IMG/VR virus record: IMGVR_UViG_3300037341_000136
Coordinates: 1-39,906 of that record
Source of the DNA: a virus
DNA length: 39,906 bases
Strand: one strand, 5' to 3'
Shown here: positions 3,084 to 28,654 of the stretch, piece after piece
Layout of the letters: the number at the start of each line of letters is the position of its first letter
Position numbering within the stretch: position 1 is the first letter of the stretch
The notes under the pieces: model-generated
Databases searched by the model: none
The model's input: only the letters and a program-made list of their open reading frames with translations
Told to the model about the DNA's origin: nothing
Program-made: the position numbers and the translations under genes

Positions 3084-6000
3084 GCGATTCCTCCCGCAAC
3101 AATGCGCTCCAGTGTCGCGCTCAGCCGGGCGTCGGCCTGGTCGAGAATGGTGCTGGTCAACTCGTGGAGGCGGGCAGTGGTATCAACGACTGGATTTGTA
3201 ATAGTGATTCCGCCCAGATTGACAGTCATACCTCCGGTATCGCCCGCCGTGCGTTCCGGTCTCAGGTCCGGACCAGGGCCGGGCGGCAATGCCGGTGTCA
3301 CCATGCCGCCCTGTCCGCCCATCAGGAGATAGGTGCGCCCTCCGACTCCCAGCAGTTCGGGCGCGCCGCCCTCGGTTACCTCATACATGCGGTTGGGCTC
3401 CACCGGGCCACCCAGCGCCCGGCGACCGGCCACGCCACCCCCGGCAACGGTCGTCAGGTCGCCACGCGCTTCTTCACTCGGTATTTGCCGCGCCGTGGCC
3501 TCCTCGATGACCACGCGCTCGACTGTGGTGTGCGTGGTTACTATCTCGGTGGGTATTCTTGCGAGGGCGTTCCTGATGCCCTCAGCCGCCGCCTCTGCCT
3601 CGCCGGGGATTTCCATCAGGCGCGCCGCGTATTCGTCCGGGCCAATTTTACCCTGACGAAAATCCTCCGTCGCTTGCTCGGTCAGTTCTTTGATCGTGGC
3701 GTCAACTACCTCTTGTGTATGTACCGCACTGGTCTGGACATCCCGCAGATGACCGATGTACTCATCGGTATTTTCACCACCTTTGGCTGCCCACTCATCA
3801 ATGCTTTGTGTCATCTGTCCGAATGAGCGGTCAGTCAGCGACTGCTGCACACCGAATTGCGATGCAATGTCGGCGGTCATCGCATCGAGTGCTTCCTGGC
3901 TGACCCCGTCTCGCCGTGCGCGGGCAACCGTGTAATTGATAAGCTCCTGGCCCAGATGGGCCATCTGCGCCGCTTGCTGGCGGGCATAGCTTTCAGCAGC
4001 CGCCAGTTCTTGCTCCTGGTAGCTTTGCTGTGCGGTCGTTAGCTTCTCGCGCTGTGCATCCTCCAGATTAACAATTTGTTGCTGGAGTTGCGCCCGCTCC
4101 TCCTCGGTTGTTGCGGCGGCAAGCTTTTGTGCTAACCCGGCACGCTGCTCATTGAACGTGGTAATCAGGTCGGCAACATTTGCCTGGTGCTCCCGTTGTG
4201 CATCCTCGCGTTCCTGGAGGAAATCGCGCTCCGTAGACACTGCTTTTCCGAACGCCTGCGCACCATTCTCGGCGGATCGCGCAGCAGCATCGCTGAGGGC
4301 CTCCATCTCTTCAGCGGTAAGGGCAGCCTGTACCCCTACTCCTGCGGTCGCCTCCGCCGTCGCCGTCGCCGCCCCGGCAGCGGCGGTCAGGTCGGCAGTG
4401 GCATCTTCAAGTGCTGCTTCGTATGTCAGGATACGTGCGGCATTTGCCTCCCATATCGCGGGGTCTTTTTCGCCCCGCTCCGCCAGGTCGCCACGGATCT
4501 GGAGTTCCATTGCCAGAAGCGCCTGGAGGCCGCGCACCGCTTTCGCCTCAGACGCCACCGCTTCCTGGACACCGTCGCTGGCCTGTTCATAGTCGCGTAT
4601 GGCATCCCGCGCTTCCAGCACGCTTTCGCGCTGGTTCAGCCACTGCTCGGCAGCCGCATCCCCCCAATCGTTGGTGCGGAGTGCATCCATGCCCCGCCCA
4701 ATATCATTGAGTCGGGCAATGAACCAGGGCATAGTATCATTGGCAAGACCGAGCAAGCTGTCAGAGAGTGGAGTCAGGCCCTCGGTAAGCATCGCCTGGG
4801 TTTTCGCCGTGACCGCGGCGGAGAGTTGCCCCCAGTTTTCATACTGGATGGACATCTCCTCAATCGCCCGTCCGTTCGCATTCGCCGCGGCAACACTGTC
4901 GCCCAGGGCCAGCACCGCTTCTTCGCCCATATTCTCCCACAGACCGCGGAAATATAACACGCCGATTTCCTGGCGCTTCAGGGGATCTTCGATGGCGTTG
5001 AGGCCAGCGATAATCTGCTGGAACGCCTCGCCTTCGCTGATTTCGCCTGATGCGAGGCGCTGTTGGATAGACGCAAAGCCCGCGTCGAGTTTGCCGACCG
5101 CTTCGAGCACGGCAGGGTCTTTGAGGTTGACGCGGAACTCGTTAAGGCTATCACCGATCTTATCGGTGTTTATAAAGCCTGCTTGCAGGCCCTCATTCAA
5201 TACCGACAGCGTGCCAGCGGCGGTTAGTCCCAATGCCGCAAAGTCATCACTATATTCATTGAGGGTATCCTGAAGATCGTCAAAGCGATCCAGGTTCATC
5301 TGCTGCCCTTTTGCCATCAGCGTCAGCGCGGCTCCGGCCGACACCCCGAACTCGTCGGACATGCGTGCGGCGGTGCGGAAACTCTCAGTGGTGTCAATTC
5401 CGAACGCCTGCTGAAGATACTGCCCCTGTTCGACAACGTCCTGGAGTTCATTGCCAGTCAGATCTCCAAACGCCCGGCGAGCTTCATTTGCCAGATCCCC
5501 CGTCTGCTTGATTGCAGCCCCGGCCCCGACAACCGCCCCGGTGAACAGCGCCCAGGGACCAACCTGCTGAAGCGCGACGGTAAGGTTCTTGCCAATCGCG
5601 TCGCCAAGACCGGCAACGCGTTTCGTCTGGTGATCTGCCGCGTTCGCGGCCCGTTCCGCAGCCCGTGTCGCCGCTTGCTCCGCCCGGATCTTTTGCGTCA
5701 ACAAGTTGTAGTAGCGCGTCGTGCCCTCGCTGGTGCCCTGGAGCGCTTGCTCCAGGATTTCGACCTTCTGCGCATGCGTAGCCGATGCCAGTGCTGCGCG
5801 GCGCTGCGCATCATCCAGGCGCTCAAACTCGCGCAATGACTGCGCGGTTGCCGTTGCAGCCTGACGGAGCGACCGTCCCAGGATCTCGCCGGTGGTGTGC
5901 GATGCCCCCGCCATGGCGGTGAACGTTCGCTCAACCCGTTGCCCATCCGTGCGCACGGTCGACTGGAGTTGCACAAACGCGCGCTCCATTGCGCGCGTTT

Positions 6001-15961: not shown

Positions 15962-16041
15962 TTACCTACTCGCCTTTCCTGCCACGCCGCCATAATATTC
16001 CGCATCGACAGATCAAACGCCGTATATGGCGCATCGGGCAT
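15958..16041 (-). CDS. Possible 27-aa protein
   Basis: A short frame from ATG at 16041 encodes MPDAPYTAFDLSMRNIMAAW then QERRVGK. A GGTGAT sequence lies just upstream of the ATG and the stop overlaps the next ATG. The amino acid composition looks like a real helical peptide. I recognise no family. Without homologues it remains tentative. The rest of 15,773-16,228 outside these frames shows only the promoter and a hairpin. Confidence 0.4.
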   Translation of the reverse strand: MPDAPYTAFDLSMRNIMAAWQERRVGK

Positions 16042-18249: not shown

Positions 18250-18404
18250 GTCGGTTCCTTTCGTTCTCATAGAAATTCGCGCGGTGGAAACCACGCCGTT
18301 TTAACGGCAGTTGAGGAAACCGCGCTCCTCCTTTTTTGCTTGTACGGATGTTCGCATAGTGGCGGCTTCTGGCCGTAAGACCCAGGTGCCGCCAAACCTG
18401 TTGC

Positions 18405-18662
18405 CTGTTACCAGGCACGCGCCCGAAGGCGGTAAGGTGAGCCTCGCCAAAGTTATGAGAGGGTTTTTGGGTGTAGCACTGTTCCTTCCCGTCAGAACTG
18501 TTTAACCACAACCCGCAGAGCCTGGGGCTGGCTCACGTACCTCAGGGTGCCTATACATTCCTCTCTAACGTAGCCCGGAGAAATCCACCACCGGGCTGAG
18601 GCTGGTCAACCAGGCTTACGGACGAACCGCAAGCCCATCCGCTTTAGCGGTGGGTAGTTGAC
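18405..18662 (+). ncRNA. Structured RNA element, copy 1 (resembles HEARO/omega RNA of IscB)
   Basis: About 258 bases with no protein frame that fits. It shares an ordered set of blocks with the element that follows it: TTACC ... GGTAAGGTGAGCCTC, then TTTAACCAC, then a CCTGGGG/CCTCAGG stem around CTGGCTCACGTA, a GCCCGG/CCGGGC stem, and a terminal hairpin GCCCATCCGCTTTAGCGGTGGG ending GTTGAC. That final hairpin is like the right ends of IS200/IS605-type elements. Stem bases vary but still pair between the two copies. The match to HEARO RNA is from memory of its consensus words (TTAACCAC, GGCTGGCTC). No IscB or TnpB gene is nearby. Confidence 0.55.
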
Positions 18663-18915
18663 CTGTTACCTCTTGCTTTCTTGCCTTGCGGCAGTAAGGT
18701 GAGCCTCGACCATGTTCACCCGGCTTGTCATGCTGGTAGCACGGGCCATTCCGCGTTGGCCTGGTTAACCACCAGCGATAGTGCCTGGGGCTGGCTCGCG
18801 CACCCCAGGGTATCGTGACCGGCTGAACGGAGCCTCGAAAGGCCAGGTCTGGTCATACCCGGATTACTCGCCGGAGCGTGCAAGCCGCCTGACTTCAGTC
18901 AGTGCGGTGTATGAC
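18663..18915 (+). ncRNA. Structured RNA element, copy 2 (tandem paralogue of copy 1)
   Basis: About 253 bases start directly where copy 1 ends. It has TTACC ... CAGTAAGGTGAGCCTC, GTTAACCACC, the stem CCTGGGG/CCCCAGG with loop CTGGCTCGCGCA inside a CGATA/TATCG stem, GCCTcgaaAGGC, and an end hairpin (GCCGCCTGACTTCAGTCAGTGCGG) followed by TATGAC. The loop words are nearly the same as in copy 1 while flanks have diverged, as expected of a conserved RNA. No protein-coding partner follows; 18,916-19,021 shows nothing recognisable. It could be a mobile mini-element. It runs antisense to the leftward transcript. Confidence 0.55.
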
Positions 18916-19021
18916 ATAAGGGGCTACCATCGGCGTCGAACCCCGCCACCCTGTTTGGATACCCCTGCCGGCAGTTGCGGCGCTCCTGGGGCGTTCTGGC
19001 GGCTCTCAGGGGCATTGCGTG

Positions 19022-26981: not shown

Positions 26982-27593
26982 ATGCCCCCTCGAATGGATC
27001 GCCCGTCGCGCGAGTGGATGGAGCAGAAGTATGTCACCGAGGGCCTCGATTGCACTCAACTGGCGGAACTGCTCGGCATCAACTCCAAAACCGTCTGGAA
27101 GTGGCTGCGTGCCTACGGCATACAGACGCGCCCGCGCGGGTCGAATGAGGCAGTGCTTTTTAAGAAAGGCCAGCACAACGGCTTCAACGGTTCGATGCTT
27201 TCCGAGGAGTCGCGGCGCAAGATTGCCGAAGCCCACAAGCGCAACGGACATGTACCGTATCTGAAGGACGGCAAGCCGTGGATGAAGGGCCGCAAGGGGG
27301 AATTGTCAACCAACTGGAAAGGTGGTATCACTCCAGAGCGGCAAGCGGTCTACGACTCACGCGAATGGAAAGAAGCTGTCAAGGCCGTATGGAAGCGTGA
27401 CAACGCAACCTGTCAGCGATGCGGCAAGCGGCACAATATTTTTACGAACCGTGGCACTTTTGATATTCATCACATCGTAAGTTTCGAGGTCGCAGAGCTT
27501 CGATGCGAAGTGAGCAACCTTGTTCTTCTGTGCGAGGAATGTCATTACTGGGTTCACAGCAACGCCAACACTCAGAAGGAGTTTCTAGGATGA
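26982..27593 (+). CDS. HNH nuclease with N-terminal HTH (203 aa)
   Basis: Residues about 20-46 (EGLDCTQLAELLGINSKTVW) are a helix-turn-helix. Residues 74-90 (SEESRRKIAEAHKRNGH) are like the NUMOD3 DNA-binding helices of homing nucleases. The C-terminal HNH domain has zinc cysteines at 144, 147, 184 and 187 and the active motif DIHHI ... N179 ... H188. The ATG at 26982 has GAAGG very close by; an ATG at 26994 is possible. It overlaps the methyltransferase by four bases. It could be a free-standing homing nuclease, or the nuclease partner of the methyltransferase. Confidence 0.82.
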   Translation: MPPRMDRPSREWMEQKYVTEGLDCTQLAELLGINSKTVWKWLRAYGIQTRPRGSNEAVLFKKGQHNGFNGSMLSEESRRKIAEAHKRNGHVPYLKDGKPWMKGRKGELSTNWKGGITPERQAVYDSREWKEAVKAVWKRDNATCQRCGKRHNIFTNRGTFDIHHIVSFEVAELRCEVSNLVLLCEECHYWVHSNANTQKEFLG

Positions 27594-28654
27594 CAGGTCA
27601 ATGCTTTGAAAGCGCAATAGGCCAGAACTATGCGCTGTACCACGGCGATTGCGTTCTTGTACTTCCTGGTTTACCAGACAATAGTATCGGCCTATCCATC
27701 TCTTCATGGCCATTTTCAGATCAATACAGTTATTCGCCGTCGCCACACGACTTTGGGAACTGCGACGGCGATACGGATTTCTTTCAGCAGATGACCTATC
27801 TGCTTTCGGAGTTGTATCGCGTGACGATACCCGGTCGTTTTGCGATTGTGCATTGCAAGGATCGCATTATCTACGGCAGCCGCAACAACGGCTACCGGCA
27901 CATTGAGCCATTCAGTGACAAGGTGACGGCTGCGATGCGTGCGGCGGACTGGCTATTCTTCGGGCGCATTACCGTGGCGACTGACCCGGTGAGGGAAAAC
28001 AACCAGACCAACAATCTGCCCTACTCCGAACTCTTGAAGGACGCCTCACGCTTTGGGGTCGGCATGCCCGAGTATTTACTGCTGTTCCGCAAGCCGCACA
28101 CCGCCACGGCGGAGGGTGGGCAGTGGTCGGATGAGCGGGTCACAATGGATAGCGATGCCTACACGCTCCCGCGCTGGCAACTGGATGCCAACTCGTTCTG
28201 GCGGAGCGACGGGGAGCGACTGCCCTGGGAAGACGGTGGCTATAACTACCAACGCCACGTTGCCTACCTGGAAGACCTGGATCGCAAGGTGCTGCTGGGC
28301 CGGTCGCATGGCCAGTCGGTCCCCACCGATAACCCCTGGGTCTGGTGGGATATCAGCCGGATCAAGGTGTTGAATGGACGCCTGGCCAAAGAGAACGAAG
28401 ACGAGAAACACATCTGCCCGCTTCAACTTGACTTGATCGAACGCTGCATCACCCGATGGAGCAACCCCGGCGATACGGTGTTGGATTACTTTGCCGGTAT
28501 CGGCAGCGTGCCCTGGGTAGCGCTACAGATGAACCGGCGCGGCGCGGGGATTGAGTTGAAGCGCAGCTACTACGAGGTAGCACGTCGCTACCTCCAGGAT
28601 TTGGAGTTTCAGCAGGCGCAGCCGACGCTGTTTGATCTGGCCGAGGCGCTATGA
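27590..28654 (+). CDS. DNA methyltransferase, N4-cytosine/N6-adenine type
   Basis: The ATG at 27590 overlaps the HNH stop (ATGA) with AAGGAG upstream; 354 residues. Order of motifs is permuted: the catalytic motif IV region is near the N-terminus (SISSWPF, residues 36-42, in place of the usual S/D-P-P-Y/F), and the AdoMet motif I is near the C-terminus (LDYFAGIGS, about 298-306). A large central block (LYRVTIPGRFAIVHCKD ... VGMPEYLLLFRKP) is typical of phage methyltransferases. It would methylate phage DNA, for protection or marking. The exact base and site cannot be read. The changed motif IV is worth testing. Confidence 0.82.
   Translation: MTGQCFESAIGQNYALYHGDCVLVLPGLPDNSIGLSISSWPFSDQYSYSPSPHDFGNCDGDTDFFQQMTYLLSELYRVTIPGRFAIVHCKDRIIYGSRNNGYRHIEPFSDKVTAAMRAADWLFFGRITVATDPVRENNQTNNLPYSELLKDASRFGVGMPEYLLLFRKPHTATAEGGQWSDERVTMDSDAYTLPRWQLDANSFWRSDGERLPWEDGGYNYQRHVAYLEDLDRKVLLGRSHGQSVPTDNPWVWWDISRIKVLNGRLAKENEDEKHICPLQLDLIERCITRWSNPGDTVLDYFAGIGSVPWVALQMNRRGAGIELKRSYYEVARRYLQDLEFQQAQPTLFDLAEAL

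Follow-up and report, generated by a model that had tools for sequence, protein, structure and literature searches.

A temperate phage carries, on the minus strand of its genome, a 645-bp element in which two omega RNAs lie one behind the other, and which we consider likely, as an explanation taken whole, to be a mini-element of the IS200/IS605 type that has lost IscB and is no longer autonomous, and whose second omega RNA is nested where the lost iscB gene had its start codon. Three features lead to this reading: ends that are shared with chromosomal elements, a leader that is preserved up to the start codon, and the last ten codons of IscB. The window, i.e., the whole stretch of 39,906 bases that was analysed, is an IMG/VR record encoding an integrase, the small and large subunits of terminase, a portal protein, a DnaB-type helicase and a methylase, and it is this set of genes that identifies the phage as temperate.

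Two omega RNAs and the remains of an iscB gene

The element, its parts and its immediate surroundings are as follows (L032, L033 and L065 are relatives of its parts; L007 is a sister phage).

18271..18915, minus strand: whole mobile mini-element, without counterpart in L007; its ends match those of L032 and L033
18916..18931, minus strand: guide A, GATGGTAGCCCCTTAT, just 5' of HEARO position 1; flanking phage DNA, not part of the element
18694..18915, minus strand: omega RNA A (HEARO, RF02033), with the hairpin GTCATA...TATGAC at its 5' end doubling as the element's left end
18663..18693, minus strand: ribosome-binding region that preceded the lost iscB of element A (its leader), identical in L032 and running to the position of the former start codon
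18678-18663, minus strand: guide B, AAGCAAGAGGTAACAG, 16 bases of the A-type IscB leader
18432..18662, minus strand: omega RNA B (HEARO, RF02033); its first base begins its own left end, GTCAAC
18358..18431, minus strand: tail of B, two small hairpins and a hairpin with a 7-bp stem, TGGCGGC..GCCGCCA (fold z -4.1)
18301..18357, minus strand: 18-codon remnant, MRTSVQAKKEERGFLNCR and a stop, its last ten codons being the IscB C-terminus (the L032 IscB ends in YHTRKEERGFLRCR and a stop)
18271..18325, minus strand: right end of element A, a 7-bp stem GCGCGGT/ACCGCGC round an inner hairpin, then GAATTTCT, as folded
18267..18270, minus strand: ATGA, target motif and presumed TAM, also directly after the right ends of L032, L033 and L065
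18046..18249, minus strand: small phage gene outside the element, just downstream and on the same strand as the omega RNAs; its frame is intact in L007

Comparison of the window with the Rfam covariance library produced exactly two matches, both to RF02033 (HEARO), both on the minus strand and both spanning model positions 1-211: RNA A at 18915-18694 (130.6 bits, E 5e-27) and RNA B at 18662-18432 (130.2 bits, E 7e-27), where the gathering score of the family is 83 bits. The same family search returned zero matches in 14 control genomes. The initial annotation of this DNA, which had recognised omega RNAs of the HEARO class from the letters alone, was thus right about the class of both blocks. 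It had read them on the plus strand, with GTTGAC and TATGAC as 3' ends, and here it has to be turned around: as the RNAs lie on the minus strand, these motifs are their 5' termini, GTCAAC and GTCATA. The extent it gave, 18405-18915, was too narrow for a unit of 18271-18915, and it missed both the surviving 3' end of IscB and the leader, which show where the element came from.

The two RNAs are 58-62% identical (62% on the Rfam alignment). In alignments fitted to the Rfam model, and to that extent somewhat biased in its favour, 52 of the 62 comparable pairs are paired in both copies, 19 of them having changed on both sides, against at most 13 paired and at most 4 double changes when the partner was slid by 1-3 columns; B and L065 differ by 17 two-sided pair changes (slid controls, 0-4), and A differs from L032 by 7 and from L033 by 6, concentrated in the stem at model positions 130-136/166-172, at an identity of 82-84%. 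The earlier claim that the stems are conserved despite base changes is upheld by these counts. For B no close relative was found, the best being ~68-75% identical.

What lies between and behind the RNAs tells of a former gene. The tail of A reproduces the leader of L032 as far as the start codon, the exact point at which RNA B starts. The hairpin TGGCGGC..GCCGCCA that closes the tail of B is its putative, and uncertain, right end, with GCCGCCACT as the presumed terminus; the ATGC that follows departs from ATGA/ATGG, and no close homologue of the tail was found. The first codons of the 18-codon remnant (MRTSV) may derive from the old IscB N-terminus. The right end of A overlaps the iscB stop codon and is 95% identical, over 64 bp, to the right ends of L032 and L033. 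No known family was found for the small gene beyond it.

The pair was also described from the outset as orphan, and this holds. Searches of the window by tblastn with two IscB proteins as queries gave no match, the TnpB zinc-ribbon (PF07282) is likewise missing from the window, and a Y1 transposase (PF01797) was found neither there nor in L007, i.e., the element lacks the transposase gene that an autonomous member of IS200/IS605 would carry. The element is not traversed by any long frame: stops number 6-9 per frame and are never more than 87 codons apart, on which ground a translated region is rejected. No clear promoter was seen adjoining it. The HNH protein at 26982-27593 was considered as a substitute for IscB and rejected: it scores 25.6 bits, where the IscB cut-off is 175, and is an HNH endonuclease of the ordinary phage kind. 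This endonuclease (203 aa) overlaps the start of a DNA N4/N6 methylase frame (26982-28654 for the two), and they may be a linked pair.

An element-free sister phage

The sister phage L007 (IMGVR_UViG_3300037858_000055) is 95-99% identical to the window phage. The two run co-linear to window position 18916 and resume at 18270, L007 having nothing of the stretch between, so the whole 645 bp, from the left end at 18915 to the right end at 18271, behaves as a single insertion/deletion unit. The flanks are 99% identical in the two phages (8 mismatches in 900 bp on one side and 1 in 276 bp on the other), and the existence of so near a phage without the insert makes the unit look like a real, fairly recent mobile mini-element. 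The right end of the unit abuts ATGA as it does in its relatives, yet where the window has the 645 bp, 17 other bases, GTGACCGAAATCTACGA, stand in L007 (L007:930-946). The empty site is therefore not an exact join of GATGGTAGCCCCTTAT and ATGAGAACG, and a simple insertion of 645 bp does not account for the difference; either a small adjacent deletion in the lineage of the window or a scar or insertion in that of L007 would. No third allele of the site was found, the left flank occurring only in L007 and the neighbouring gene only in the contig of L007. The element is not conserved among the relatives of the phage, and its exact 645-bp, double-RNA form was seen in the window phage only.

Relatives in chromosomes

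The HEARO core pattern, when applied to genome contigs, led to a Chloroflexaceae MAG (G024) with two elements, L032 and L033, so that the same ends are found at two other sites, one with an IscB remnant and one with a single RNA. L032 opens with a left end and an RNA at 88% identity to A, followed by the leader GGCAAGAAAGCAAGAGGTAACAG, a decayed iscB (start MHHVLVLDKNS.., with most of the N-terminal half lost), a right end at 95% and ATGA. Its subterminal hairpins, left and right, are thus common to the window element and to an element that retains part of iscB. L033 is a 401-bp mini-element with a single omega RNA, no IscB, the same ends (left 84%, right 95%) and, again, ATGA. Over ~250-260 bases A is 84-88% identical to these two.

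More widely, HEARO RNA is present in at least 40 of 400 Chloroflexota genomes, with at most five candidates scored per genome. At 22 of the 91 chromosomal HEARO loci no IscB lies within ~1.5 kb (4 of the 22 are on truncated contig pieces); because orphan omega RNAs are as common as this, the lack of iscB in the window counts against an autonomous element and not against the RNA class. None of the 91 has a second HEARO in its flanks. Where copies of an element occupy different places, the left border is HEARO position 1 in most pairs and the flank differs from copy to copy, as expected if the guide is taken from the flank; the right borders of multicopy elements are ATGA, ATGG or ATAAAA in most pairs. 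ATAAAA is also a TAM used for the engineered IscB NovaIscB (PMC13180657). Three omega-RNA-only copies of 411 bp in the Chloroflexota genome G324 (L166-L168), 99.8-100% identical and with the right border ATAAAA, occupy unrelated sites, and a pair of 421-bp omega-RNA-only copies without IscB occurs in G148 (L156/L164), all five starting at HEARO position 1. Such near-identical copies indicate that omega-RNA-only mini-elements are mobile elsewhere. Group II intron matches were also noted near two chromosomal HEARO RNAs (L141:2736-2812 and L159:2301-2394), possibly introns in or near IscB elements.

Of the three options raised in the initial annotation, it is that of mini-elements moved by a host transposase that gains support, from the absence of the unit in L007 and from the IS605-type ends that it has in common with chromosomal mini-elements. 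The host in question was sought through the portal protein, of which there is no homologue in the genome contigs or in 82 genomes of the order of the Chloroflexaceae MAG, and no transposase or IscB that would serve the window element was found in an identified host.

Proposed origin and alternative explanations

By the account that we favour, an element A would have lost nearly all of its iscB, keeping the left end, omega RNA A, the iscB leader and the right end over the stop codon, and an element B, likewise reduced to its omega RNA, would have come to sit exactly at the former iscB start codon. That B is nested in A is the best reading of the position at which B starts. A Y1 transposase (TnpA) of the host, acting on the terminal hairpins, would have mobilised the element in trans, as its ends and its identical multicopy relatives suggest; most likely, host proteins acting in trans both move and serve the element.

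The "tandem" of the initial annotation stands insofar as two RNAs follow each other, and fails, probably, insofar as it implies plain duplication. Array-like amplification of one omega RNA would explain why A and B share the order RNA, small hairpin, GGTAACAG, and why their final 17 bases are identical. We nonetheless think it unlikely: the two RNAs are much less alike than A is to single-RNA elements in other genomes, the first base of B is that of its own left terminus, and the tandem arrangement is without parallel at the other 91 loci. A different challenge comes from the idea that the element jumped once and is now dead debris, its RNAs inert and neither expressed nor used. Among the rivals to a guide function in trans this is the foremost; it leaves the anatomy untouched, and we give it an appreciable, though lesser, chance of being correct. 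It is in keeping with a phage that has neither IscB nor transposase, with a deleted nuclease gene, with the lack of an obvious promoter, and with a further phage (L173, below) that retains just a left-end fragment. Set against it are the scores of 130 bits that both RNAs still reach, with pairing kept through two-sided changes, the stem that has been largely rewritten between A and its 84-88% identical relatives (by the 6-7 two-sided changes given above), and the identical omega-RNA-only copies elsewhere, from which it follows that such elements still move.

It could also be supposed that the phage has recruited the RNAs as a device of its own, to use or titrate a host IscB, whether as a weapon against related phages or as a decoy against a defensive IscB. 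Guide A does match the homologous locus of a real, element-free sister phage, but wherever such an insertion occurs, its flank becomes guide A, and the match needs no recruitment. Nothing shows IscB acting in defence in these hosts, the relatives of the phage do not conserve the element, and a weapon or decoy adds an assumption that no observation requires, all of which makes such a device highly improbable in our estimation.

Guides and possible targets

Guide A has an exact match in L007 at the element-free site, where the next bases are GTGACC (GTGA, not ATGA). Among all the loci retrieved, the window and the L032 element alone contain the 16-mer of guide B, which in L032 stands next to ATGCAC. 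Neither adjacent motif is the ATGA of A-type right ends, so that cutting of either target is hypothetical. Were a host IscB to accept these RNAs, RNA A would direct it to the element-free phage allele and RNA B to A-type IscB elements that lack the nested insert, and cutting of element-free or insert-free copies would favour those that bear the element, with a retention or gene-drive effect. We infer such guiding in trans, and the initial annotation's suggestion that the RNAs "hijack a host IscB" is possible in this sense. In its boldest form, the element would be a nuclease-free, selfish phage element with two guides and a borrowed host IscB, one guide converting or destroying element-free sisters and the other attacking intact IscB elements of the parent type at the iscB start codon. 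We regard this as a speculative and rather improbable extension; if true, insertion of the nested RNA would at once silence the nuclease gene of the parent and take its place.

Relation to known systems

The window element resembles HEARO/IscB elements in the full-length covariance match of both copies, in a 5' terminus that is the left end of the element, in the iscB leader that follows A and in a right end that overlaps the iscB stop, and differs from them in having no iscB, in holding two RNAs in one element and in being borne by a phage. Stand-alone chromosomal omega RNAs were reportedly found in Ktedonobacter racemifer by Altae-Tran and colleagues in 2021. These, too, have no adjacent IscB and presumably act in trans; the 22 loci described above are of the same sort, each with a single RNA, whereas the window has two together, carried by a phage of which an element-free sister is known. 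A likeness is also apparent to the PATEs of Haloquadratum (palindrome-associated, transposase-free IS605 derivatives, for which PATE-in-PATE nesting is recorded), which are short, have near-terminal IS605-like palindromes, make no target duplication and are too short for a transposase; in the part of that source available, guide RNAs are not described for PATEs, and the ends in the window are of the IscB type (PMC3119063). The TnpB of IS200/IS605 is a retention system and a gene drive on plasmids, where element-free copies are cut (PMC11870625). There, as here, the guide records the insertion site, but the nuclease is encoded in the TnpB element, whereas the window element would need an IscB, not a TnpB, supplied by its host (PMC11870625).

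The RNA class and stand-alone omega RNAs are already known, as are transposase-free IS605 derivatives with nesting (PMC3119063). No description of a two-RNA IscB mini-element, or of a phage-borne one, was found in the literature searched, which mostly excluded subscription papers. What the element adds is an apparent case of omega RNAs that move between chromosomes and phages as discrete mini-elements, unaccompanied by their nuclease. Since a chromosomal relative, a recorded guide and an allele free of the element are all available as defined sequences, the action of orphan omega RNAs in trans, and their possible drive through phage populations, become directly testable.

Other viral copies

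Right-end and B-core patterns gave no further copy among the viral contigs. Two of them have the HEARO core motif, and these, which served as positive controls, carry complete HEARO-IscB elements (L003:5561-7134 and L004:8186-9776) with IscB proteins of 444 and 440 aa that are 59% identical. A human faecal phage record (MT835856) has a HEARO followed by an IscB-like frame. The left-end 28-mer was found in one further phage among the viral contigs, without the rest of the RNA: at L173:13680-13750 (IMGVR_UViG_3300037826_000044) there is an A-type left-end hairpin, 85% identical over ~71 bp, with no remaining omega RNA, perhaps the mark of a second, more reduced visit of the A-type element family to phages. 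The IMG number of L173 is close to that of L007. Elsewhere in L007, ~890 bp (L007:2995-3886) are extra relative to window positions 16035-16039 and complete a 264-aa frame (3166-3960), a gene whose body the window may have lost; the part adjoining these ~890 bp resembles the L173 gene that ends right before the A-type left end.
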